NCBI GenBank assembly: GCA_017438975.1
Contig: JAFRUH010000021.1
Span: 44,517-108,516, forward strand
DNA from: Bacteroidales bacterium
Lineage (GTDB): Bacteria > Bacteroidota > Bacteroidia > Bacteroidales > UBA932
DNA length: 64,000 bases
Direction of reading: 5' to 3'
In this document: piece by piece, positions 29,314 through 40,904 of the stretch
How the letters are laid out: the number at the start of each line of letters is the position of its first letter
Numbering within the stretch: position 1 is the first letter of the stretch
Program-made: the position numbers and the translations under genes
Notes under the pieces: model-generated
What the model was told of the DNA's origin: nothing
What the model saw: only the letters and a program-made list of their open reading frames with translations
The model's database searches: none

Positions 29314-30447
29314 ATGAAACATGAAACTTCCGTACGGATCGTTTCCGTCGAAGGACGGCGCGCCCTGATGCAATTCATCCGTTTTCCCCTCGGGCTATAC
29401 AAGGACTGCCCCCAGTGGGTCCCTGCTTTCGAAGATGATGAGATCAAATCCCTCTCAGACCAGAACCCTTCCCTCGCTTTCTGCGAGCGGGAACTCTATC
29501 TGGCCATCAAGGGCGGAAAGATCGTCGGCCGTGTCGCCGCAATCCTGAACCGGAAGGCCAATGAAAAGTGGGGAGAGAAGACCGTCCGGTTCGGATGGAT
29601 CGACTTTATCGACGATTTCGAGGTCGCCAAGGCGCTCATCGATGCAGTCGTTTCCTGGGGGAAATCCCGGGGAGCAGAGAAGGTCAAAGGCCCTCTCGGG
29701 TTCACAGATATGGACCGGGAAGGACTTCTGGTAGAGGGATTCGAGCACGACAGTCCCTTTACGGTCATCTATAATTTCCCGTATTACGGAGAGTACCTCG
29801 AGCGGATGGGTTTCCGGAAGGACGCCGACTGGACCCAGCGGATCATCGAACTTCCCGACCATCTGCCGCCGATGTTCCAGTATGCTGACCTCGTCGAGAA
29901 ACGCTATGGACTCAAGATCTGGCGAGGACGCAACATGCGGGAAATGTCGAAGCGCGGCCGGGAGATGTTCCATGTCCTCAACGATGCCTTCGCCCCGCTC
30001 TATGAGTATTCCAAACTGACGGAAGAGCAGATTGACGGGTATGTGAAGCAGTATGTCCCGATCATGAACAAGGACCTTGTCGCCTTCGTCGTCAATGAAG
30101 AGGACAAACTGGTCGGCTTTACCGTAACGATGCCCTCGATCTCCAAGGCGGTCCGGAAGGCCAGGGGACGGCTGTTTCCTTTCGGATTCATCCCCTTCCT
30201 CCGGTCCCTCCGGAAGAACGATACGATCGAGGCGCTGCTGATCGGCGTTCTCCCCGAGTATCAGGGGAAGGGCGCGAACGTCCTGATGTTCAAGTATATC
30301 CATGAAAATTGCATCCGCTTGGGAATCAAACGGATGCTTCTGAATCCGCAGCTGGAGGAAAATTACAAGGTCCAGTCCCTCTTCGGGGAGTATGACCCGC
30401 AGCCCTACCAGCGACGCCGGAGCTATGTGATGGAACTGAAGGACTAG
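29314..30447 (+). CDS. GNAT-fold acyltransferase, YghO-like (bacterial ceramide synthase-like candidate)
   Basis: A 377-residue protein with no signal peptide. Recognisable segments are the N-terminal FPLGLYKDCPQWVPAF, the central GPLGFTDMDREGLLVEGF and a C-terminal GNAT-like acyl-CoA/ACP-binding region ending IGVLPEYQGKGANVLMF. From memory it belongs to the YghO-type family that includes the N-acyltransferase (bCerS) of Caulobacter ceramide synthesis. That link is recalled, not computed. It is convergent with, and overlaps by 4 bp, an ACP gene that follows an acyl-AMP ligase, a context that suits an N-acyltransferase of a sphingoid-like base. Function is inferred. Confidence 0.75.
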   Translation: MKHETSVRIVSVEGRRALMQFIRFPLGLYKDCPQWVPAFEDDEIKSLSDQNPSLAFCERELYLAIKGGKIVGRVAAILNRKANEKWGEKTVRFGWIDFIDDFEVAKALIDAVVSWGKSRGAEKVKGPLGFTDMDREGLLVEGFEHDSPFTVIYNFPYYGEYLERMGFRKDADWTQRIIELPDHLPPMFQYADLVEKRYGLKIWRGRNMREMSKRGREMFHVLNDAFAPLYEYSKLTEEQIDGYVKQYVPIMNKDLVAFVVNEEDKLVGFTVTMPSISKAVRKARGRLFPFGFIPFLRSLRKNDTIEALLIGVLPEYQGKGANVLMFKYIHENCIRLGIKRMLLNPQLEENYKVQSLFGEYDPQPYQRRRSYVMELKD

Positions 30448-30686
30448 GAAGCGAGTCCCGCTACAAATTCACAGACTTCTCCCACCGTCGTGAACGGAGC
30501 CTGTCCGTCGGGGAAGCGCATCTGGAATTTCTCTTCGATGGCCAGCGAAAGCAGCATCATCGACAGGGAGTCGATGCCGAGTCCGCGGACCAGTTCCGTA
30601 TTGAAGTCCACATTCGTGAGGTCCGTATTCGGACGGAGGACCGAAAGGATTTCTTTCAGTTCTTCGAAAACTTGTTCCTTTGTCAT
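30444..30686 (-). CDS. acyl carrier protein
   Basis: An 80-residue acidic helical protein with the phosphopantetheine attachment serine at S40 in GLGIDSLSM. It is not in a fatty-acid synthesis cluster but is the last gene of the Hdr/cysteate-synthase operon, overlapping the acyl-AMP ligase by 4 nt. That pairing implies a dedicated ACP charged by the ligase. Its 3' end overlaps the GNAT gene by 4 bp. Confidence 0.92.
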   Translation of the reverse strand: MTKEQVFEELKEILSVLRPNTDLTNVDFNTELVRGLGIDSLSMMLLSLAIEEKFQMRFPDGQAPFTTVGEVCEFVAGLAS

Positions 30687-32173
30687 ACGCGTGCGACTTT
30701 CATGCTGCCCGTACGCTTGAAATCTTCCGTACGGACGGTTGTTTTCATGATCTGATGGGTCGTCGGGAGGGTTGCATTGATCTTCTTCACGAGATTCTCC
30801 ATGTAAGCGACAACCTCTTCCCAGGGTTTTCCGTCAAAGGCGGGCATCAGCGGGAGGATTTCCACGGCGATGCAGGGCTGTCCGTTCAGTTCCCCTTCCT
30901 TGACCATGGCGTCTTTCACGCATGGATCGGCGTAGAAGGGTTCTTCCAGGCTCTCCGGACTGACATTTTCGCCGTTGGCGAGGATGATCAGGTTCTTGAT
31001 CCGCCCCGTAATGTAAAGGAAACCTTCTTCGTCCATGCGGACGAGGTCCCCGGTGCGGAGCCATCCGTCTTCCGTCAGGGCTTCGGCCGTCTTTTCCGGG
31101 TCATTGTAATAGCCGGAGAAGAGGTTGTCTCCCTTGACCCAGAGTTCTCCGTCTACGAATTTGACTTCCTGGCCGGGATAGACCTTTCCGATCGACGTCG
31201 GTTTCTCTACGGCGTTCGCGTTGGCGGACGTCAGGTTCGCGGTCTCCGTCAGTCCGTAGCCGAAGCAGAATTCGACACCGAGTTTGGTAAAGATGTCCAC
31301 GAGGCGCGGAGGTACGTTCGCCGCCCCGGAAATGATCATCCGGAGACTGCCTCCGAGGAACTGCGGGCCGTAGAGTTTGCACAGACCTGCGAGGATGTCG
31401 CAGATTCCCGGAACGATGACGAGGATCGTCGGCTTGATGACCGGAAGCTTCCCGATCGTCGCTTTCATGTCCTCGCAGGTATAGATGAGGTTGCCGGTAT
31501 AGAAGCAGCCCATCGTGCCGGCGATCAGGCCGAAGACGTGGCTCAGGGGGAGCAGGGAGATGTACCGGTGCACTCCGATAACCTTGCCGGGCTTGAAGAT
31601 GGCATTGTAGGATCCTCTCATGAGGGCCCTGTGGCTGAGGACGGCGCCCTTCGGGGTCCCCGTCGTTCCGCCGGTGAAGAAGATCGCGGCGGGCTGCTCC
31701 TTGTCCACGACCGTCGCCGGGACGCCGTTTTCAGCGATGGACGAGGCCGGGAAGACTTTGACGCCCTCGAGCTTGGCGCAGAGGGGAGCGAATTCATCCC
31801 GGACGAAAATCGCGGCGATATCGAACTTGCGGCAGGAGCCGATTACGGCCATTTCCGGAAGGGAGGCCGGGAAGTTCATGGCAACGTAACCCGCCGAGGT
31901 AACGGCAAGGAAGAGTTCGATGGCATCCTGGCTGTTCCGGTCGAAGATCGCGATATGCGATCCTTTCGGAAGGCCGGTCGCTTCCAGGAATGCGCGGCGG
32001 CGGGCGACCCTCTCTCCAAGTTCTTTATATGTAATGGTTTGGGTGAGATCGGAGAGGGCGGGCCTGTCGGCATACTCCTTCTCCATCCAGGTAACGAATT
32101 CCCCCATGGTGGGAAGGTAGGGCATGCGTTCCAGCTCCTCCCGGGGGATCATGTCATAGAAATAATTGGACAT
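30683..32173 (-). CDS. acyl-AMP/acyl-ACP ligase (AMP-binding family)
   Basis: An ANL-superfamily adenylating enzyme of 496 residues. It has the ATP loop FTGGTTGTPKGA, the GYGLTET motif, the hinge segment TGRIKNLIILANGEN and a C-terminal RTGSMKV containing the catalytic lysine. Together with the adjacent ACP it most likely activates a fatty acid and loads it onto ACP. Analogous ligase/ACP pairs are needed for bacterial ceramide synthesis, which supports a lipid role here. The start is 18 nt after the cysteate-synthase-like gene. Confidence 0.9.
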   Translation of the reverse strand: MSNYFYDMIPREELERMPYLPTMGEFVTWMEKEYADRPALSDLTQTITYKELGERVARRRAFLEATGLPKGSHIAIFDRNSQDAIELFLAVTSAGYVAMNFPASLPEMAVIGSCRKFDIAAIFVRDEFAPLCAKLEGVKVFPASSIAENGVPATVVDKEQPAAIFFTGGTTGTPKGAVLSHRALMRGSYNAIFKPGKVIGVHRYISLLPLSHVFGLIAGTMGCFYTGNLIYTCEDMKATIGKLPVIKPTILVIVPGICDILAGLCKLYGPQFLGGSLRMIISGAANVPPRLVDIFTKLGVEFCFGYGLTETANLTSANANAVEKPTSIGKVYPGQEVKFVDGELWVKGDNLFSGYYNDPEKTAEALTEDGWLRTGDLVRMDEEGFLYITGRIKNLIILANGENVSPESLEEPFYADPCVKDAMVKEGELNGQPCIAVEILPLMPAFDGKPWEEVVAYMENLVKKINATLPTTHQIMKTTVRTEDFKRTGSMKVARV

Positions 32174-32191
32174 TGTTGGTGGTTTAAGTAT

Positions 32192-33475
32192 TTAGAATAA
32201 AGCGCTGACCGCACGGACAACTTCCTCGGCAGGAAGGTCCGGTGAAAGGACGAGGTCCGGTTCCTTGAGCAAGAATCCCCTGGACAGGGCGCCAAGGGTT
32301 CCGCCCCCCGTGCAGTTCAGCATAATGTATTCGTCTTTTTTGACGGCTCCTTCCCGGACGGCTTTCGCAAGGGCCGTGACGGCGACGCAGGCGGCAGGAA
32401 GGAGGTCATAGCCTTCCCGGTTCCTGAATTGGAGCAGCCAGTAGATGATATCGTTGTTCGTGGCAAGATAGAAATCTCCGCCGCTTGCTTTCAGGACATC
32501 GTAAAGGCCTCCGGCCAGGCTGTAGGGCGGTTTCCGGTTCGAAAGGACGGTGGCGAGCACGGCCTCCGCCTGTCGGCGGCCCTCTTCCGGGGCCAGGTCA
32601 ACCAGGGCGCGGGAATCGGCCTTCCAGGAGTCGTACATCAGGGTAAACGGCTCGTTCTGGGCGACATAGACCCGCATCTTGTTCTCGCCGAAACATCCGT
32701 CCTCACCGAGACGGCAGGCATTCTCCCAGGCGGCAATGGCACCCGTCCCGGATCCGACGGCCTGGAAATAGGCATCGGGAATCCGCCCCATCTTTTCCAC
32801 GCAGCTGAGGACGGTCGTCCCCATGCCGTCGCGGCGGGCGATGTTCTTGGCCCCACCCTCCAGCATGAAATGGGGATCGGTCGCCAGTTTCTCTCCGAGA
32901 GCGATGGCGTCGTAATAGTCGCATCCGTGGGGCACAGCCACCAGCTTGACGCATTTGTTCAGTTTCCGGCGGAACCACAGGTCGTGCAGGTTGTCCTGAG
33001 GGACGCAGATGACGATCGGAATCCGGTTGTCGGAGCAGACTTGTGCGAACGCACGGGCCGTATTGCCGGCCGACTGTACGACAAGGATCCGCATCTCGTC
33101 CGCTTCCATCCTTGCTAGGACGGAATAGGCTTCCGTCTCCTTGAAGGAACCGGTGCGCATCTTGGCCCCGATCCGGGGATTCCATCCGGAGAAGGTGATG
33201 TACAGGTTCTCCAGGCCGAGGAACTGGGCCAGTCCCTTGGACTTGTACGTGACGGGGGCGCAGGATTTCCGGAGGACGCGGCTGATCGGCATCCATTCCG
33301 CATAGCGGTAGATCCCGTCGAGGTCGTCCCGGGGTGTGAACTTGCGGTTGTCGTAGACCGCCCGGACGAGGGAGGGGGTCTTTCCGGCAGGATCGCTCAG
33401 CGTCCAGCCCAGATCTTCGAATTCGTGCCCGTCAGCGGCGTTGACGAGGTGGTACTTGGTTTTCTCGAATTTCAT
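32192..33475 (-). CDS. cysteate synthase-like PLP enzyme (threonine synthase family)
   Basis: A 427-residue fold-type II PLP enzyme. The Schiff-base lysine is K112 in RTGSFKETEA, the Asn loop is QSAGNTARAF and the phosphate loop is GSGTGA. Segments such as GIYRYAEWMP, SCAPVTYKSKGLAQ and LYITFSGWNP resemble, to my recollection, cysteate synthase, which makes L-cysteate from O-phosphoserine and sulfite, rather than housekeeping threonine synthase. The genomic setting (SDR, ACP, acyl ligase) is lipid-like, not threonine biosynthesis, and fits a CapA role in capnine sulfonolipid synthesis. Its start overlaps the membrane Hdr subunit by 4 nt. The family is certain; the specific activity is probable. 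Confidence 0.75.
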   Translation of the reverse strand: MKFEKTKYHLVNAADGHEFEDLGWTLSDPAGKTPSLVRAVYDNRKFTPRDDLDGIYRYAEWMPISRVLRKSCAPVTYKSKGLAQFLGLENLYITFSGWNPRIGAKMRTGSFKETEAYSVLARMEADEMRILVVQSAGNTARAFAQVCSDNRIPIVICVPQDNLHDLWFRRKLNKCVKLVAVPHGCDYYDAIALGEKLATDPHFMLEGGAKNIARRDGMGTTVLSCVEKMGRIPDAYFQAVGSGTGAIAAWENACRLGEDGCFGENKMRVYVAQNEPFTLMYDSWKADSRALVDLAPEEGRRQAEAVLATVLSNRKPPYSLAGGLYDVLKASGGDFYLATNNDIIYWLLQFRNREGYDLLPAACVAVTALAKAVREGAVKKDEYIMLNCTGGGTLGALSRGFLLKEPDLVLSPDLPAEEVVRAVSALF

Positions 33476-35304
33476 ATGGCTTCTGTTTTTGTTATTGTTC
33501 CAACGGTTTGCGCGTCCACGATTTCGGCGATGTCCCGGACGGGCCGGTCCGCGTACCGGCTGAAGGTGGCGAGGCAGAGCGGACAGGCCGTCGCGATGGC
33601 GTCCGCCTTCCCGTCATAAAGGTTCTCCAGGGCGGCGCGCGTCATCTTCTCCCGCTTCGCGAAGGACAGGGTCAAGGACCCCAGGGAACCGCCGCAGCAG
33701 ATGCTCTCATTCCGGTTTTTGGGCGACTCGGTGATGGCCGCGATACGTCCGAGCAGCCGGCGCGGCTCCTCATAGATCCCCATTCCCCGGCCCAGCTCGC
33801 AGGGATCGTGGTAAACATAGCAGAGGTCGCTCCGGGACGCTTTCAGCCGTCCTGCATCCAGCAGCTCCTGCATATAATCGATATAATGGACGATCCGGAT
33901 CCCCGGAAGGTCGTATTTCTCCTTGAACATCTTGTAGCAGATCGGACAACTGACGACGAGGGTCCCGACCCCGTATCCCAGGATCTGCGCCTCGTTTTTC
34001 CGGACGATGGCTTCCGCTTCCTCCAGCCTCCCGGCCAGGTACATCGGGCGGCCGCAGCAGACGCCTCCGTCCCGGTCGATCCATTCATAAGCGATTCCGG
34101 CCTTGCGGAAAACGGATTCGACGCTGCGTCCGACGGAAGGGACCAGCCGGCTCATACAGCCGGCGTAGTAAAGGACCTTTCCTTCCCCGGCGCTTTCGGC
34201 GGGAGGAGGATCGGGGATGCAGGAATAATCCGGACTGAGGGCATATTTCCTTTCAGAGCGCAGCTGGATGCGGAGGGCGGGACCTTCGACCCCGACCTGG
34301 CAGACGGCTTCGCATTTTCCGCAGAGGAGGCATTTGTCGCTGATCTCTTCGATCCGGCGTTCGTTCTTCCGCCTCAGCTGCCGGGTCAGGTAGACGGTAC
34401 AGTCCTTGATGTTCGCTTTGTCCACGCTCATCGGGCAGGCGTCGATGCAGACTCCGCAGTTGGGGCAGGACAGGACCTGGACCTTTGCAAATCCCTTGCG
34501 CGCATTGCGGACTCGGATACCTGCGTTCCGGAGGGGAATCAGCATCATCTCCGCAGGGATATGCATGTACCGGGAGAAAGGCAGGACGACCATGAACACG
34601 TCGAGCACGATGGAATAGGCCCACCAGGTCGGAAGCAGGTTGAGGTCGTTCCCCAGGAACTGGCGGAAGACCCAGTTGGCGGGGATGGTCAGGAAGGAGC
34701 CGCCGCTGATATGGGCCGTGAAACTCTCGGCCAGGAGCCGGAGCGGGAAAATGGCCCAGAGAGAGTAAAGCCCGATCCGGTTCATCAGGGACGGCCGGGC
34801 GGTCCGGCGCATGCCGAAGATGCGGGAACGGATGCGCTTGTACATCGCGAGCGCGATACCGCTGAGGATAATCAGCAGGAAGAAATCCATCAGGAAGAAG
34901 AGCAGGGAACCCTGGATCGTGGAGTCCGCTTCGGCAACGAAGAAATTGAAAAAGATCGGATAGTAGAAAAGCCGGATCCGGTGCGGCAGGAAGAGGATGA
35001 CCTCGATATGCCCCAGGACGATCAGCATGAACCAGCCGAAGGCGATGCTCGAATGCATATAGCCCAGCAGCCGGTTCCGTTTCCACAGCTTGACGTGGAA
35101 AAGGCAGTCGCAGAAGATGTCCCTGATATTCTTCAGGATGGTTTTCGGCGTGACGAGCGAGATGAAGAACCGTTTCCGGTCCTCCGCGGGAAGCTGCAGG
35201 AGGATCCGGAAGATACCGATGAAACAGTATCCCAGCACGAAAACCATTCCCGCGACAAAGGGAATGACAAAGGGATGGAAGCCAGATGCGACGCGGTCAA
35301 TCAT
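33472..35304 (-). CDS. membrane-anchored HdrE/HdrD-like Fe-S oxidoreductase fusion
   Basis: A 610-residue fusion. Residues 1-255 contain five or six hydrophobic segments with several His (for example H84, H99, H248) like a b-type cytochrome (HdrE/NarI-like) anchor. Next come two [4Fe-4S] ferredoxin motifs (C280/283/286/290 and C325/328/331/335). The C-terminal half has two CCG domains (GVCCGRP with CPICYKMF, then SICCGGSLGS with CPLCLATF) as in HdrD/GlpC. Such proteins pass electrons between the quinone pool and disulfide or thiol chemistry. It is the membrane end of a five-gene Hdr-like module and overlaps the genes on both sides. Confidence 0.88.
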   Translation of the reverse strand: MIDRVASGFHPFVIPFVAGMVFVLGYCFIGIFRILLQLPAEDRKRFFISLVTPKTILKNIRDIFCDCLFHVKLWKRNRLLGYMHSSIAFGWFMLIVLGHIEVILFLPHRIRLFYYPIFFNFFVAEADSTIQGSLLFFLMDFFLLIILSGIALAMYKRIRSRIFGMRRTARPSLMNRIGLYSLWAIFPLRLLAESFTAHISGGSFLTIPANWVFRQFLGNDLNLLPTWWAYSIVLDVFMVVLPFSRYMHIPAEMMLIPLRNAGIRVRNARKGFAKVQVLSCPNCGVCIDACPMSVDKANIKDCTVYLTRQLRRKNERRIEEISDKCLLCGKCEAVCQVGVEGPALRIQLRSERKYALSPDYSCIPDPPPAESAGEGKVLYYAGCMSRLVPSVGRSVESVFRKAGIAYEWIDRDGGVCCGRPMYLAGRLEEAEAIVRKNEAQILGYGVGTLVVSCPICYKMFKEKYDLPGIRIVHYIDYMQELLDAGRLKASRSDLCYVYHDPCELGRGMGIYEEPRRLLGRIAAITESPKNRNESICCGGSLGSLTLSFAKREKMTRAALENLYDGKADAIATACPLCLATFSRYADRPVRDIAEIVDAQTVGTITKTEAI

Positions 35305-35614
35305 AGATTCGGCAAAGGTTCAGGATAAGGTTTCGCGTATTGATTCCGCGGGGACAGACCATCGTGCACTTCCCGCAAAGCATGCATCCGGAGAGAAGGG
35401 GACGGACATCCTGGCCCCGCTGGAGACCGAGCAGGACCTTTCTCAGGCTCATTCCGCTGTACGGGCCGGCCGTGCAGGTCGCCCCGCAGGATCCGCAGTT
35501 CATGCAGATCCGGGCATCCGGCGACGCCTCGCACAGCCTCTCGAAGAGAGTCGTGTCGACTTTGTCCAGCTCGACGGCGGAACTCTTGCTCAGCTTGAAC
35601 CCGAAATCCGTCAT
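35297..35614 (-). CDS. HdrC-like 4Fe-4S protein (small)
   Basis: A 105-residue soluble protein with two [4Fe-4S] motifs: CMNCGSCGATC and CMLCGKCTMVCPRG. This matches HdrC, the electron-relay subunit of heterodisulfide-reductase-like complexes. It overlaps the HdrA-like gene by 4 nt and the membrane subunit by 8 nt, so it probably links the FAD subunit to the membrane anchor. Confidence 0.88.
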   Translation of the reverse strand: MTDFGFKLSKSSAVELDKVDTTLFERLCEASPDARICMNCGSCGATCTAGPYSGMSLRKVLLGLQRGQDVRPLLSGCMLCGKCTMVCPRGINTRNLILNLCRIYD

Positions 35615-36627
35615 AGGCCTTTCTGGAGATAACGGTGGATGTCGAGGGCCGCTGCACGGGCCTCGGCGAGGGTCTCGGGGACGGTTTTGGGCCCGGTGCA
35701 GGCACCGGCGAAGAAGATGCCGGGACGGTTGGAGGCGTTGATGCTCCGGATATTGTCGAGGCTCTTGAGGAAGCCGTCGCTGTCGATGTCCAGCCGCGCC
35801 ATCCGGGCGAGACGGGTCATTTCAGGGTTGCAGGCCATCCCGGCCATCAGCACGAGGAGGTCGAGCCGGACCCTCAGGGGCTTGCCCGTCAGGGTATCCT
35901 CGGCCTTGACCTGCAGACGTCCGTCTGCGGTCTCTCCGACTTCGGAGACACGCCCCCTGACGAACTGGATTCCATATTCCTGCTGGGCCCCGAGGTAGAA
36001 GTCCTCGTATTTCTTCCCGAAAAGACGGAGGTCCATGTAGAAGCACCAGACCCGCGCCGAGGGGAACTTTTCCTTGATTTCGATGGCCTGCTTGACGGCA
36101 GTCATGCAGCAGACCTTCGAGCACTCCAGGTTTCCGGCCTTGAGGTCCCGGGAGCCGACGCAATGGACAAAGCCCACATTTTCCGGCACCTCCGGGATAC
36201 GGACGTCCGGCTTGCCGTTGAACCAGGCCTCGAGGTCAGAGTTGGTAATGACGTGGTCATAGACCCCGTATCCGTACTCCTCCTTCCGGGCGGCGTCGAA
36301 GAGCTGGAATCCCGAGGCGACCAGGAGCGACCGGCAGGCGACGTTCACGCCGTTGGAAAGCATAACCTGGTACCCGTCGCGGAGCCGGTTGATGGAGTTG
36401 ACCTTCGTTTCCAGGAAGATGTTCGCGTCGGAGATCTCCTCTCCCAGGCCACGGATGAGGTCCTGGGCGGAAGCCATGTCCGGGAATAGCCGGTGCCACT
36501 GCCCGACATGGCCGCCGAGGCGGTCTTTCTGCTCCACGACGATGGGATGGTAGCCCAGCAGCAAGAGCTGCCGCGCCGCCTCCATTCCGGCGATGCCCCC
36601 GCCGATGATGACAACATTCTCTTTCAT
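35611..36627 (-). CDS. HdrA-like FAD-dependent subunit
   Basis: A 338-residue flavoprotein related to HdrA. The dinucleotide-binding motif VVIIGGGIAGMEAARQL is at the N-terminus. A Cys-rich segment, HCVGSRDL followed by CSKVCCMTA, resembles the HdrA cluster-binding region, and a second FAD motif, GIFFAGACTGPKTVPE, lies near the C-terminus. It lacks the extra N- and C-terminal ferredoxin domains of methanogen HdrA, so it is a short version. The ATG at 36627 is chosen, 2 nt after the HdrB-like stop. Confidence 0.85.
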   Translation of the reverse strand: MKENVVIIGGGIAGMEAARQLLLLGYHPIVVEQKDRLGGHVGQWHRLFPDMASAQDLIRGLGEEISDANIFLETKVNSINRLRDGYQVMLSNGVNVACRSLLVASGFQLFDAARKEEYGYGVYDHVITNSDLEAWFNGKPDVRIPEVPENVGFVHCVGSRDLKAGNLECSKVCCMTAVKQAIEIKEKFPSARVWCFYMDLRLFGKKYEDFYLGAQQEYGIQFVRGRVSEVGETADGRLQVKAEDTLTGKPLRVRLDLLVLMAGMACNPEMTRLARMARLDIDSDGFLKSLDNIRSINASNRPGIFFAGACTGPKTVPETLAEARAAALDIHRYLQKGL

Positions 36628-36629
36628 CG

Positions 36630-37700
36630 TCAAAAACATTTGAGGTTCGTGGGAAGTTCCGGCTTGAGGAGGTCTTCCTTGTTGAGACCCAGATACTTCG
36701 CCTTCGGATCATATTCGACCCCGATCCGGTCCAGGAAAGGTTCCACGGCGACCTGGTGCAGCTGGAGTCCGAGGTCCCAGGGATCATAGCCGAGCACCAG
36801 GCCGGCCAGTTCCTCGTAGGTGAAGACAGGGATGCCGAATCCGTCCTTCCCGTAGGTCTTGCCCGTCTGCTCGGAGATGACGTACTGCCACCGGTCCATG
36901 AAATAGCAGCATCCCGGGCAGTTCGTCAGGATCGCCTGGATGCCGTAGGGCTCCATCGATTCGAACTTCTTGTGGGTATTCGACACGCAGTAACCGCGGT
37001 TCGCTTTCATATGGTACTGCCGGAACCCGTAACCGCAGCAGTGGCGGCGTTCGGGGTAGTCGACGACCTGGCCTCCCCAGCTTTCGATCATTCCCGCAAG
37101 GACATAGGGATACTCGGCCCCGCCGATGCCCTTCGAAGGGAACATCTTGGCGTAGTGGCATCCGATATGCTCCGCCATCCGGACGGGCTCTCCCGTCTCC
37201 TTGTCAATGAGGCGGTAGCGGGCCTTTTCGGCAATCTCATTCCGCCAGTGATAGATCAGGTCGCTCGTATGGGCCAGATACTTCGGCTTGTTGAATTCCC
37301 TCCGGCAGGCCTTCCAGAGCTGTTCCCGGATCCGGGTTTCGAGTTCGGGAAATTCCCGCCAGGTTTCCAGGATCTCGACATAGTTGCCGAACGAGGTGAC
37401 GCAGCTCGGGACATAGTTCTCGTACCCGGATTCGGTCATCAGGGCGAACTGGCGGGCGACGATGGTCATCGCCGTCTCCTGGGGAATCGCGTCACAGTGG
37501 TAAGCGATGCCTCCGCAGGTGGTATGATAAGGGGTCTCATAGACATCCTTTCCGAGATCGTTCCGGGTGATGTCGGTGAATTTCCGTTCGCTGGCAGGAA
37601 AGAAATTCTGCCGGATGCAGCTCCTGACGTAATACCAGTGGTCGTCGGGAATCTCTTTCTGGTAGTCCTTCCAGATTTTCTGTTTGCCCTCGTAAATCAT
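36630..37700 (-). CDS. HdrB-like CCG-domain subunit
   Basis: A 356-residue protein of the HdrB family, the subunit that in methanogens holds the non-cubane [4Fe-4S] clusters reducing heterodisulfide. Cys-rich segments are HTTCGGIAYHCDAI, IGCHYAK, RRHCCGYGFRQ and TNCPGCCYFMD. This supports at least one CCG-type site; the first half is degenerate compared with canonical HdrB. It overlaps the HdrC-like gene by 4 nt. Confidence 0.83.
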   Translation of the reverse strand: MIYEGKQKIWKDYQKEIPDDHWYYVRSCIRQNFFPASERKFTDITRNDLGKDVYETPYHTTCGGIAYHCDAIPQETAMTIVARQFALMTESGYENYVPSCVTSFGNYVEILETWREFPELETRIREQLWKACRREFNKPKYLAHTSDLIYHWRNEIAEKARYRLIDKETGEPVRMAEHIGCHYAKMFPSKGIGGAEYPYVLAGMIESWGGQVVDYPERRHCCGYGFRQYHMKANRGYCVSNTHKKFESMEPYGIQAILTNCPGCCYFMDRWQYVISEQTGKTYGKDGFGIPVFTYEELAGLVLGYDPWDLGLQLHQVAVEPFLDRIGVEYDPKAKYLGLNKEDLLKPELPTNLKCF

Positions 37701-38392
37701 TCGTTGAAATGTTTGTCCGAACTGTATTCGAACGCTTTTTTCTCATATTCTTCCAGGCTCATCCCCATCTCTTCCGCTTTCTGCTGGGAGTATTTTTCGA
37801 CGAGGCTGATGCGCTCGGTGGCGCCGGTGACGTCGAAGATGGCCTTCAGTTCGTCCAGGGATTCCTGCGGGATGCGCCTCAGCACCCCGGGACCGTCCCC
37901 CTTGTAGTTCGCCCCCAGCCGCTCGAGACTCTTTTCCAGATGGTCCATGTGCCATTTCCAGACGGGACCGGACTCCTTGTGATCGTTCCAGTCGAAGGTC
38001 TCGGGGTAGACGCAATAGCCGAATTCGAGGATATTGCGGGAGAAGGTACGGGTAAGGGGAAGCATCTGGCGTCCCTTTTCGGAGCGGGTGAACAGTCCGG
38101 TCCGGATGCTGAGGTCCCGCAGGGCCATGATCACGAGTCCGGGCCCGTTCTTCCGGGGACACCGGGTCAGGCAGCTCATGCATTCCCCGCAGTACCAGAT
38201 CGTATCGGAAGAAAGGAGCTCTTCGATCTGCCGGTCATCCCGGGTCTGGACGATGTCCACGATTTTCCGGGGGTCGTACCGGTAGAACTCCGCGGCCGGG
38301 CAGACGGCCGTGCAGGTCCCGCAGTTGATGCAGGAATGGTATCCTTCCTTGAAACGGTAGTCTTTTTCGAGTTCCTCGAACAAATGGTTCAT
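37697..38392 (-). CDS. HdrC-like 4Fe-4S protein (large)
   Basis: A 231-residue HdrC-type protein. It has two ferredoxin motifs near the N-terminus (CINCGTCTAVCPA and CGECMSCLTRCPR) and a helical C-terminal half typical of HdrC. The ATG at 38392 is taken; the longer frame lies inside the SDR gene. With the HdrB-like and HdrA-like proteins downstream it would make an HdrABC-type soluble complex. Confidence 0.85.
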   Translation of the reverse strand: MNHLFEELEKDYRFKEGYHSCINCGTCTAVCPAAEFYRYDPRKIVDIVQTRDDRQIEELLSSDTIWYCGECMSCLTRCPRKNGPGLVIMALRDLSIRTGLFTRSEKGRQMLPLTRTFSRNILEFGYCVYPETFDWNDHKESGPVWKWHMDHLEKSLERLGANYKGDGPGVLRRIPQESLDELKAIFDVTGATERISLVEKYSQQKAEEMGMSLEEYEKKAFEYSSDKHFNE

Positions 38393-38396
38393 ATTC

Positions 38397-39182
38397 TCAG
38401 ACGGGTTTGATCTTCCGGGCAAGGCGTGCGCAGAGCCCGGGGAAGAAGCGTTTGACATAGACCATCGCGAGCTCTCCTCCGCCGACGAGCACTTCACGCC
38501 GGCCTTTCCGGACGGCCCTGACGATGGTACGGGCGGCTTTTTCCGGAGAGATGCCGCCTTCCTGGCCCGGGTCCATCTTCCCGTGTGGCTTCCCGCCCTT
38601 GTCGAGGGCGCGGAGGGAGATGGGGGTCCTGACGCGTCCCGGGCAGACGATCGTCACCCGGATGCCCTTGCCGTATGCTTCCGCCTGCAGGGTCTCGAAG
38701 AACCCGTACAGGGCGAATTTGGAGGAACTGTAGCCGCATCGCAGCGGGAATCCGAAGCGTCCCGCAATCGAGGTCGTGACGGCGATATGGCCGCCACCCC
38801 TTCCTTCCATCAGCGGGAGCAGTTCCCGGGCGATGGCGGCGGGGGCGAAGTAATTGATTTCCATGATCTGGCGGATCATGTCCATGGAAGTATCCTCCAC
38901 GGTTGTCCGTTGGCTGATGCCGGCGTTGAGGAAAGCGACACCGATTCCGCCGAAGGCGTCCCAGGCCTTCCGGACCAGGTCTTCGATTCCGTCCGGTTCG
39001 CGGAGGTCATAGGGGAGGATGACGACTTCCTTCGCTCCTTTTTCCCGGCACTTTTCCCCGACCGGGGCGAGGCGCTCCGCGGAAGAGGATGTCAGGATGA
39101 GGGACGCCCCGGAGGCCGCCCACTCGTAGGCGCACGCCTCTCCGATCCCGGAGGAAGCTCCTGTGATCCAGACCGTTTCCAT
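38397..39182 (-). CDS. short-chain dehydrogenase/reductase (3-ketoacyl-base reductase candidate)
   Basis: A classical SDR of 261 residues with the nucleotide motif TGASSGIG (7-14), the NAG motif (86-88), Ser138 and the catalytic Y151-x3-K155 (YSSSK). The C-terminus is hydrophobic and basic (KRFFPGLCARLARKIKPV), as in membrane-associated lipid reductases such as 3-ketosphinganine reductase or DHRS7. In an operon with a cysteate synthase-like gene, reduction of 3-ketocapnine is a reasonable hypothesis. It sits 4 nt from each neighbour. Confidence 0.88.
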   Translation of the reverse strand: METVWITGASSGIGEACAYEWAASGASLILTSSSAERLAPVGEKCREKGAKEVVILPYDLREPDGIEDLVRKAWDAFGGIGVAFLNAGISQRTTVEDTSMDMIRQIMEINYFAPAAIARELLPLMEGRGGGHIAVTTSIAGRFGFPLRCGYSSSKFALYGFFETLQAEAYGKGIRVTIVCPGRVRTPISLRALDKGGKPHGKMDPGQEGGISPEKAARTIVRAVRKGRREVLVGGGELAMVYVKRFFPGLCARLARKIKPV

Positions 39183-39186
39183 CGGC

Positions 39187-40266
39187 CTAGGCCTCTCTGA
39201 TTTTTTCCCGGGAGACGAGTCCCATCATCCGGAAGAGGAACTTGGGAAGGGGCTTGAGCGGATCCCGTTTCTTCATGTCGATCACCCATCCCAGCTTCTT
39301 GACGACCGGGACCTTGTGGGTCTCGACGAACTCGATCAGGGTCCCGTCGGGGTCTTCGATATAGGTGAAATGGCCGGAAGCGTCGCCCATGTCGAAACTG
39401 GTGTCGCCGGGGCAGCTGTCCACGGTGAAGGGATGGCCTTTTTCCGCACAGAATTTCCCGAATGCGCGCATGCCGGTGACGTCATAGCAGATCTGGATGA
39501 ACCCGGGATCGCCCCAGAACCGGCCCTCGAAAATCTTTCGGGGCGTCCGGTCCAGGGCCTGGACGAGTTCGATGCAATCCGGTCCCATCAGTTCGGAGAA
39601 GGCTCCTTTCCTTCGGCGCGAAGTGCCGAGGAGAACCCTCCGGTACCGCTCTCCGGCGCCGGGGAGGATCGACCAGTCGCCGAACACACCGGTTTCGTCG
39701 TACCGGACCGTGTCATATCCGAGGATTTCGCGGTAGAAGGCAATGGACCGGTCCATATCCGTGACCCCGACGAGGGCTCCGCCCATTCCGCCGTTCAGAC
39801 GCTTCTCCCGGAGGAAGACATAGTCGGTCTGGATGACCTGGAAACAATTGCCATACAGGTCCTTGACATAGAAGCAGGGCGTTCCGTCCGGAAGGGTCGA
39901 CACCGGGCCGACATTCTCCCACTTCGAGGAGATTTCCTTATGGAAGGCGGCGACGTCCCCGCAGTTGAGCTTGGCGGCGAAAATCCCGAGGTCTCCCGGA
40001 GCGACGGAGAAGGGAACCGGCAGGGGCTTCCTCTCTGAATACTGCCAGATCTCGAATCCGCCTCCTCCCCGGAGGCTCACGGCGATGCAGGCGTGGCGCT
40101 TGTGGGGGACGCCTCCCGTATAGGGCAGCATCCGCTCCGCCACCGTATCGTCCTCCAGGATCCGGATATCGATTCCGAACATCCCGATGAACCAGTTCCA
40201 GGACTTCCTGAAATCTACCGTTCCGACTCCCACCTGCTGGATGCCGGATATCGTGAAATTACTCAT
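39187..40266 (-). CDS. two-domain VOC (glyoxalase/extradiol dioxygenase-like) protein
   Basis: A 359-residue protein with two vicinal-oxygen-chelate repeats (about 5-145 and 155-305; GVGTVDFRKSWNWF and GVTDMDRSIAFYREILGY). Candidate metal ligands include a His in each half (KRHACIAV; GHFTYIEDPDGTLIEF) and terminal Glu residues. The C-terminal tail is basic. The reaction is unknown; VOC proteins include isomerases, lyases and dioxygenases. The ATG at 40266 is used, because the upstream extension lies within upp. It is the second gene of the operon, between upp and the SDR. Confidence 0.83.
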   Translation of the reverse strand: MSNFTISGIQQVGVGTVDFRKSWNWFIGMFGIDIRILEDDTVAERMLPYTGGVPHKRHACIAVSLRGGGGFEIWQYSERKPLPVPFSVAPGDLGIFAAKLNCGDVAAFHKEISSKWENVGPVSTLPDGTPCFYVKDLYGNCFQVIQTDYVFLREKRLNGGMGGALVGVTDMDRSIAFYREILGYDTVRYDETGVFGDWSILPGAGERYRRVLLGTSRRRKGAFSELMGPDCIELVQALDRTPRKIFEGRFWGDPGFIQICYDVTGMRAFGKFCAEKGHPFTVDSCPGDTSFDMGDASGHFTYIEDPDGTLIEFVETHKVPVVKKLGWVIDMKKRDPLKPLPKFLFRMMGLVSREKIREA

Positions 40267-40274
40267 GTGTATCG

Positions 40275-40904
40275 TTATTTGGTCCCGAAAATCCGGTCTC
40301 CTGCATCGCCGAGACCCGGGACGATATAGGCGTTCTCGTTGAGGTGGTCGTCGACGGCCGCGACATAGATGTCGACGTCCGGGTGCTCTTTCTGGACCTT
40401 TGAAATTCCTTCCGGAACGCTGACAAGGCACATCAGGCGGATATTCTTGCAGCCCCTCTCCTTGAGCATCGCAATCGCGTCGCAGGCGCTTCCGCCGGTT
40501 GCGAGCATCGGGTCGGTCACGATGACCATCCGGTCCTGGATATCCTCCGGAAGCTTGCAGTAGTAGACGACGGGTTTATGGGTCTCTTCGTTGCGGTACA
40601 GGCCGATATGTCCGACCCTGGCGACCGGAACGAGGGTGTGCAGTCCTTCGACCATTCCCAGACCGGCCCTCAGGATCGGGACGATGGCAAGTTTCCTGCC
40701 GGAGACTTCCTTGGCGCTCATCTTGCAAAGGGGCGTTTCGATCTCGACGTCTTCGAGCGGGATGTCGCGGGTAACCTCGTATCCCATCAGAAGGGAGATC
40801 TCATTCAACAGTTCCCGGAAATCCTTGGATCCGGTTTTCTTGTCCCGCATGATTGTCAGTTTGTGCTGGATCATCGGGTGGTCGATAACATGCAGTTGGC
40901 TCAT
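40275..40904 (-). CDS. upp: uracil phosphoribosyltransferase
   Basis: Pyrimidine salvage enzyme making UMP from uracil and PRPP, 209 residues. The PRPP-binding loop is [15 protein letters not shown], with the uracil-site [13 protein letters not shown] at the C-terminus. It is the first gene after a perfect promoter and ends only 8 nt before the VOC gene, so it appears to lead the whole Hdr/cysteate-synthase operon. That is an odd partner for a housekeeping enzyme. Confidence 0.95.

Follow-up and report, generated by a model that had tools for sequence, protein, structure and literature searches.

A predicted capnine-type sulfonolipid operon of a Bacteroidales bacterium with a heterodisulfide reductase-like module as a possible source of sulfite

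A putative sulfonolipid operon of a Bacteroidales bacterium (assembly GCA_017438975.1) was analyzed, which is located on a stretch of 64,000 nucleotides of contig JAFRUH010000021.1 (positions 44,517 to 108,516, forward strand). This whole stretch is called the window, and all coordinates refer to it. The host genome comprises 2.8 Mb on 33 contigs and is 98.5% complete and 3.6% contaminated, and annotation covered about 22.8-45 kb of the window. A tight series of genes runs on the minus strand from about 40.3 to 30.4 kb. It starts with the gene for a VOC (glyoxalase-fold) protein (39187..40266; PF00903, 35 bits with the longer open reading frame), followed by an SDR gene (38397..39182; adh_short, 158 bits), which encodes a candidate 3-ketocapnine reductase. 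Then follow five genes of the heterodisulfide reductase (Hdr) type, i.e., for an HdrC-like 2[4Fe-4S] protein (37697..38392; NF041779, 86 bits, below the cut-off of 350), an HdrB-like protein (36630..37700; NF041780, 124 bits, below the cut-off of 450; HdrB structure 9sfi_C of the PDB, 113 bits), a short HdrA-like flavoprotein of the sHdrA type (35611..36639), a small 2[4Fe-4S] ferredoxin-like protein that resembles HdrC2 (Fer, 35297..35614; Fer4 models), and an HdrD-like membrane subunit (33472..35304; CCG domain, 85 bits, plus Fer4 matches). The series ends with the genes for a cysteate synthase, a pyridoxal phosphate (PLP) enzyme (32192..33475), an AMP-binding acyl ligase (30683..32173; PF00501, 185 bits) and an acyl carrier protein (ACP, 30444..30686; PF00550, PP-binding, 33 bits). 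The gaps from the SDR to the ACP gene are -101, -4, -10, -4, -8, -4, +18 and -4 nucleotides. The value of -101 between SDR and HdrC results from an over-long HdrC start and becomes about +4 if HdrC begins where it does in relatives; the HdrC and VOC coordinates given here contain starts that were corrected from relatives and the sequence. On the plus strand, the gene for a YghO-like GNAT protein (29314..30447; Acetyltransf_1, 34 bits), a candidate N-acyltransferase, converges on the operon.

A first-pass annotation, made from the sequence alone, had proposed a sulfonolipid locus. The genes it had named, i.e., those for the cysteate synthase, the ligase, the ACP, the SDR and the GNAT protein, were all present on the strands and at the positions described above, and the profile searches agreed with their assignments. 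The tight overlap within the operon was also confirmed, most gaps being -4 to -10. However, its gene list lacked the five Hdr-type genes (33472-38392) and the VOC gene (39187-40266). What the present analysis adds is the Hdr complex together with the VOC protein and, in relatives, a YeiH-family transporter. The earlier pathway reading was right in kind, and the Hdr module is the part that is worth pursuit. For comparison, the best 80 of 110 related loci were used, which were fetched by the cysteate synthase and are partly cut by contig ends. All have Bacteroidota titles and are mostly from uncultured Bacteroidales of rumen and gut; the closest one is L003, with a protein that is 93% identical.

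Cysteate synthase forms cysteate from O-phosphoserine and sulfite, and therefore requires sulfite. The protein encoded at 32192-33475 reached 418.1 bits with the cysteate synthase model TIGR03844 (cut-off 324.9), while the best threonine synthase model reached 58.4 bits. The result was similar in the PDB, with 481.6 bits for 9k3c ('Cysteate synthase') and 45 for the best threonine synthase. The identity as a threonine synthase, which the first-pass annotation had named as a finding that would speak against its proposal, was therefore rejected. It had also stated that an acyltransferase of the oxoamine synthase family is not encoded in the window, and this is true for the operon. Three oxoamine synthases were matched in the host genome, and a cysteate fatty acyltransferase (CFAT) was located on another contig (C30), so that the absence of an acyltransferase from the genome was likewise rejected. 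The CFAT on C30 shares 71-72% identity with the one whose gene Hdr-bearing relatives, e.g., L004, have between VOC and SDR. It had 543 bits with PDB entry 28eh ('Cysteate-C-fatty acyltransferase') and 577 bits with 7u7h, which is presumably SulA of Alistipes finegoldii, in contrast to 210 bits with serine palmitoyltransferase (SPT). It retains the motif SQMYAKSLPM, which corresponds to the region of SulA Lys281, as translated manually from a primer sequence given in PMC9304779. On C30 an SDR gene (303 bits) adjoins the CFAT gene, as SDR genes adjoin CFAT in relatives. The operon SDR had 204 bits with PRK06181, just under the cut-off of 215. CFAT is missing from the interval between VOC and SDR in L003, L010 and L030 as well as in the window.

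The GNAT protein is 29% identical to Escherichia coli YghO over 364 amino acids (E 8e-47); it had no match in the PDB, and a homologue is encoded at the cysteate synthase locus in L003 and 26 further loci. The ligase and ACP genes had been regarded as parts of the sulfonolipid system. This did not hold, because they are found behind the cysteate synthase gene only in the window and in one of the 80 related loci (L003); a 28% identical ligase relative is encoded upstream of VOC in L014. Taken together, the capnine-type biosynthesis part of the first-pass annotation stood, i.e., a route to a predicted capnine-type sulfonolipid is well supported at the sequence level by the cysteate synthase, the CFAT elsewhere in the genome, and the frequent arrangement of the cysteate synthase, SDR and CFAT genes in one operon in relatives. 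The conserved role of ACP and ligase was not retained. A related route was already known for Alistipes-type gut Bacteroidota, for which passages of PMC10191378 describe an archaeal-type cysteate synthase together with SulA.

The Hdr-type proteins retain cofactor ligands throughout their relatives. In alignments, eight Cys of HdrC were invariant in 71/71 relatives, eight Cys of Fer in 40/40, and four Cys of HdrA in 76/76. HdrB has one complete CCG site and the residues C28, C62 and C100, which were invariant in all 78 relatives. HdrD is composed of a hydrophobic N-terminal part, two [4Fe-4S] motifs and two complete CCG domains. Its 18 Cys, eight of them in addition to those of the two CCG sites, as well as His70, His84 and His248 of the N-terminal part were conserved in 67/67 relatives. 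The four hydrophobic regions of HdrD suggest a quinone-reactive, cytochrome b-like part that would bind haem and quinone. The best PDB match of HdrD was weak (9ojn, 49 bits). HdrA has 342 amino acids, and its best PDB match, over the whole length, was 6tjr (209 bits), which we take to be sHdrA of Hyphomicrobium denitrificans. It reached 246 of the 1100 bits needed for NF040770, the model of the large methanogen HdrA, and matched only a part of it. HdrA is thus a short flavoprotein of the sHdrA type and not a large HdrA.

Relatives outside of the Bacteroidota were searched in plasmid records only (n=72,556), and an HdrB relative was present in four of them. The nearest one found was L146, plasmid NZ_CP016476 of Picosynechococcus PCC 7003, which has the gene order C1-B1-A-C2-B2-sulfide:quinone reductase. 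The identities with L146 were 46% for HdrC, 41% for HdrB and 45% for HdrA; Fer is 27% identical to HdrC2 of L146 and 35% identical over 74 amino acids to its HdrC1. A plasmid of Acidithiobacillus ferrooxidans (L147:787-4490) encodes a 29% identical HdrB relative near genes for a GcvH-like protein, a hemerythrin and a DUF2249 protein, and no HdrA or HdrC is annotated there.

The Hdr genes recur next to the cysteate synthase gene in the close relatives. HdrD is directly upstream of the cysteate synthase gene in 36/80 loci, a number that is not an unbiased frequency, because the loci were fetched by the cysteate synthase. In 14/80 loci the cysteate synthase gene is accompanied by CFAT or SDR without Hdr, and in 30/80 it is present without any of these. 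The complete order VOC-CFAT-SDR-HdrC-HdrB-HdrA-Fer-HdrD-cysteate synthase was found in 17 loci, and in five more it is extended by a YeiH-family gene. L014 also has the full order from VOC to cysteate synthase, behind the ligase relative mentioned above. The CFAT gene lies within the operon in most Hdr-bearing relatives that could be seen in full. The VOC protein is 64-84% identical in 20 relatives and is encoded beside CFAT or SDR in the clade of the window and also in L104 and L155; a query with the L104 relative had no sequence match in the PDB. The gene directly upstream of the operon, which encodes a uracil phosphoribosyltransferase (40275..40904, minus strand; PF14681, 277 bits), is probably unrelated to it. 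One genome (G198, loci L094 and L095) has two Hdr sets, one beside the cysteate synthase gene (HdrB 70% identical) and the other elsewhere (62-63%).

In 20/80 loci a YeiH-family gene follows downstream of the cysteate synthase gene in the same gene series, in 15 directly after it and in five after an SDR gene. The encoded protein had 175 bits with PF03601 (cut-off 24.5) and 86 bits with TIGR00698 (cut-off 232.6). YeiH was found downstream of the cysteate synthase gene in 14/14 Hdr-less CFAT/SDR clusters versus 6/36 Hdr-bearing loci (p 4e-8), a comparison that includes near-copies, counts L025 and L035 separately although one genome contains both, and has among the 36 four loci that end within 0.6 kb downstream. 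Mutual exclusion of Hdr and YeiH was rejected, because at the genome level YeiH was present in 42/50 relatives (22/24 without and 20/26 with Hdr). In many genomes with an isolated cysteate synthase gene (e.g., G364, G368 and G371) the alignment of the YeiH match is interrupted by one or two stops.

The linkage also occurs outside of this clade. Three further families have Hdr genes together with CFAT and a gene for a cysteate synthase-like protein, CYSp, and the gene orders differ: CFAT-CYSp-SDR-VOC-HdrC-HdrD-HdrB-HdrA in L104, HdrC-B-A-D-CFAT-CYSp in L107, and CFAT-CYSp-HdrC-B-A-Fer-D in L137. In L156, from another family, CFAT and CYSp are separated by a YeiH-like gene. The CYSp proteins had about 111-144 bits with TIGR03844 (cut-off 324.9); that of L104 had 120 bits with TIGR03844 and 184 with the threonine synthase model PRK08197, both below cut-off. 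CYSp represents a second cysteate synthase-like family of PLP enzymes, which carries a CxxC...CxxC motif at the N-terminus and is encoded beside or near CFAT at L104:14450, L107:13007, L137:10412, L141:7422, L142:11140, L154:6909, L155:6441 and L156:10480. It may be an alternative cysteate synthase, possibly CapA of Capnocytophaga (compare the relevant passages of PMC10191378). In a tree of HdrB with 74 rows, in which L062 was entered as standalone despite the adjacent cysteate synthase gene and a single L146 sequence occupies two rows, the linked state needs seven changes, six of them forced by well-supported branches. At L136:8481-8905 a short CFAT-labelled stretch (81% identical) directly precedes hdrC and the CFAT-cysteate synthase cluster of this genome is elsewhere; possibly, the stretch is what is left of a former linkage of CFAT and Hdr.

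The co-occurrence of the genes was analyzed in 344 Bacteroidales genomes, for which a completeness of >=90% had been requested, and in a subset with one genome per family (108 genomes). The cysteate synthase was over cut-off in 100 genomes (101 with a truncated one), an HdrB homologue was present in 120, CysD in 220 (215 over cut-off), and CFAT in 253, which are 278 matches minus 25 at 1e-71 to 1e-74 that were taken as SPT. CFAT was found in 116/120 genomes with Hdr versus 137/224 without (p 8e-15), and with one genome per family in 36/37 versus 48/71 (p 2e-4). Among the CFAT-containing genomes CysD was rarer in the presence of Hdr (72/116) than in its absence (111/137; p 0.001), which was also true with one genome per family (22/36 versus 42/48; p 0.009). 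Over all 344 genomes no association between Hdr and CysD was seen (p 0.72). In addition, the genomes of 50 of the 80 related loci were analyzed. They contain Hdr in 26, CysD in 2, YeiH in 42 and CFAT in 48 cases. Hdr was present in 7/7 genomes with Hdr at the locus, in 2/13 with an Hdr-less CFAT cluster, in 16/29 with the cysteate synthase gene alone, and also in that of L038, which is cut by a contig end. At least one of Hdr, YeiH and CysD was found in 49/50 genomes, little above the expectation for independence. The strict form of the idea that Hdr replaces sulfate assimilation predicts CysD in those cysteate synthase-containing relatives that lack Hdr. It was rejected, because CysD was present in 2/50 and Hdr in 26/50 genomes, and a weaker form was kept.

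The best single reading of the Hdr module, based on homology and gene context, is that it may form sulfite. We regard it as an even call that the operon is a sulfonolipid (capnine) operon that carries its own sulfite-generating Hdr module. This is proposed because genes for an sHdr-like complex flank the cysteate synthase gene, in some relatives together with a gene for a YeiH-family transporter. Passages of PMC6067878 and PMC12423496 give sulfite as the product of sHdr from protein-bound sulfane sulfur; in the latter, YeiH is named the sulfite exporter of Hyphomicrobium, whose sHdr makes sulfite, and according to parts of PMC12880088 YeiH confers sulfite resistance in Salmonella. HdrB and HdrC would oxidize sulfane sulfur that is bound to a thiol or a carrier to sulfite, and the electrons would flow via the HdrA-bound FAD and via the Fe-S proteins to the membrane protein HdrD and on to menaquinone. 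The cysteate synthase would convert O-phosphoserine and this sulfite to cysteate, CFAT would condense cysteate with acyl-ACP, the SDR would reduce the 3-ketocapnine formed, and the YghO-like GNAT protein might N-acylate capnine. The oxidative direction is suggested because the nearest outside relative found, L146, is coupled to a sulfide:quinone reductase. From the potentials of sulfite/sulfide and menaquinone, the oxidation would be slightly favourable. The more general proposal, for which we see a somewhat less than even chance, is that anaerobic gut Bacteroidales possess a sulfur oxidation dedicated to biosynthesis, in which a membrane-anchored complex of the sHdr type, encoded in one operon with the lipid genes, turns sulfide-derived sulfane sulfur into sulfite and the electrons are taken up by menaquinone and fumarate respiration.

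Several observations weigh against sulfite formation by Hdr. The first CCG motif of HdrB is degenerate (likewise in L146 and L147), and with HdrA the entry 6tjr leads the methanogen-type HdrA 9sfi, which matched over a part, by just 209 versus 203 bits. No sulfur-carrier gene was recognized in the operon by profile searches, and no dedicated lipoate-binding protein LbpA was found in the genome, whose sole GcvH over cut-off sits among glycine-cleavage-like genes, as judged by eye; a second GcvH/lipoate-binding hit had 20.6 bits, below the cut-off of 22.2. Hdr was not associated with the cysteate synthase (41/101 genomes with versus 79/243 without it, p 0.17; per family p 0.65), and all co-occurrence tests are corrected for kinship only in part, by the use of one genome per family. 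A distance of no more than about 8 kb between HdrB and the cysteate synthase or CFAT gene was seen in a minority of the Hdr-containing genomes (at least 10/120, by eye among the matches listed), and neither gene was nearby in 15/20 Hdr regions examined. Twelve genomes of the order sample have a cysteate synthase and neither Hdr nor CysD. In the clade, 24/50 relatives with a cysteate synthase lack HdrB and 48/50 lack CysD, and Hdr is thus not the sole possible sulfite source.

The same gene links would be expected if the Hdr complex worked in the reductive direction and, driven by menaquinol or ferredoxin, cleaved thiosulfate or S-sulfo-thiols, which would also free sulfite for the cysteate synthase. 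The complete CCG sites of HdrB and HdrD are of the disulfide-cleaving type, and the hydrophobic part of HdrD is possibly quinone-reactive; however, the sulfide:quinone reductase of L146 points to oxidation and the reduction of thiosulfate by menaquinol is unfavourable, and we consider this variant unlikely. That Hdr acts instead on the lipid or acyl chain, e.g., in a thioester or keto redox step together with CFAT, SDR and VOC, and has no relation to sulfite, would agree with the higher co-occurrence of Hdr with CFAT (116/120) than with the cysteate synthase (41/120) and with the linkage of VOC to CFAT. The sHdr-like architecture and the link of L146 to a sulfide:quinone reductase argue against it, as does the lack of Hdr in most CFAT-containing genomes (137/253), and it is judged improbable.

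A general electron-transfer complex that is placed beside the sulfonolipid genes without functional coupling would explain the small number of genomes with Hdr near the cysteate synthase or CFAT gene and the many cysteate synthase-containing genomes without Hdr. Yet the linkage recurs in four families with differing orders and nearly all Hdr-containing genomes have CFAT, also at one genome per family, so that we give little weight to mere neighbourhood. Methanogens that make coenzyme M, such as Methanosarcina acetivorans, contain both cysteate synthase and HdrABC, and cysteate might analogously feed a coenzyme M-like thiol, the heterodisulfide of which would be reduced by Hdr. This is very improbable in view of the short HdrA and of the many relatives in which the cysteate synthase gene is found with CFAT.

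If the oxidation of sulfane sulfur to sulfite by Hdr is true, sulfide of the gut would end up in the sulfonate head groups of these bioactive lipids with no need for sulfate assimilation, and sulfur oxidation of the Hdr type would be extended from energy metabolism to lipid biosynthesis. The literature consulted names the enzymes that lead from phosphoserine to capnine, but gives no source of the sulfite for anaerobes that lack sulfate assimilation, and the Hdr module in a lipid operon would be a concrete answer to this question. Effects of sulfonolipids from gut Bacteroidota on host immunity have been reported (PMC11211663). Among the open-licence PMC papers listed in literature searches, no title or abstract linked sulfonolipids and heterodisulfide reductase.

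The module was compared with known systems. It resembles sHdr (hdrC1B1A-hyp-hdrC2B2) in the short HdrA and in the arrangement of HdrC and HdrB first, followed by a second module with Fe-S and CCG domains. In contrast to sHdr, the second module is fused to a hydrophobic membrane part, and the order C-B-A-Fer-(TM + Fe-S + 2 CCG), with no hyp recognized, is similar but not equal to C1-B1-A-hyp-C2-B2. Furthermore, no lipoate-binding protein was found with the module, and it belongs to a lipid operon whose host is presumably anaerobic. L146 has the same order of HdrC, HdrB and HdrA, but separate HdrC2 and HdrB2 followed by the sulfide:quinone reductase, and neither cysteate synthase nor CFAT is annotated in the stretch seen. 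The methanogen HdrABC and HdrDE systems share the homology of HdrB and HdrC and the combination of CCG domains with a membrane part in connection with HdrD; in contrast, the HdrA described here is devoid of additional domains, and the scores are far under the curated cut-offs. With the sulfonolipid route of Alistipes and Odoribacter, which comprises an archaeal-type cysteate synthase, SulA/CFAT and a 3-ketocapnine reductase, the system has the cysteate synthase model and the CFAT family in common. In A. finegoldii and Chryseobacterium gleum the reductases are not clustered with cfat and cys, as stated in a part of PMC11211663, whereas here the cysteate synthase and SDR genes, and in relatives also CFAT, share one operon with Hdr and VOC.

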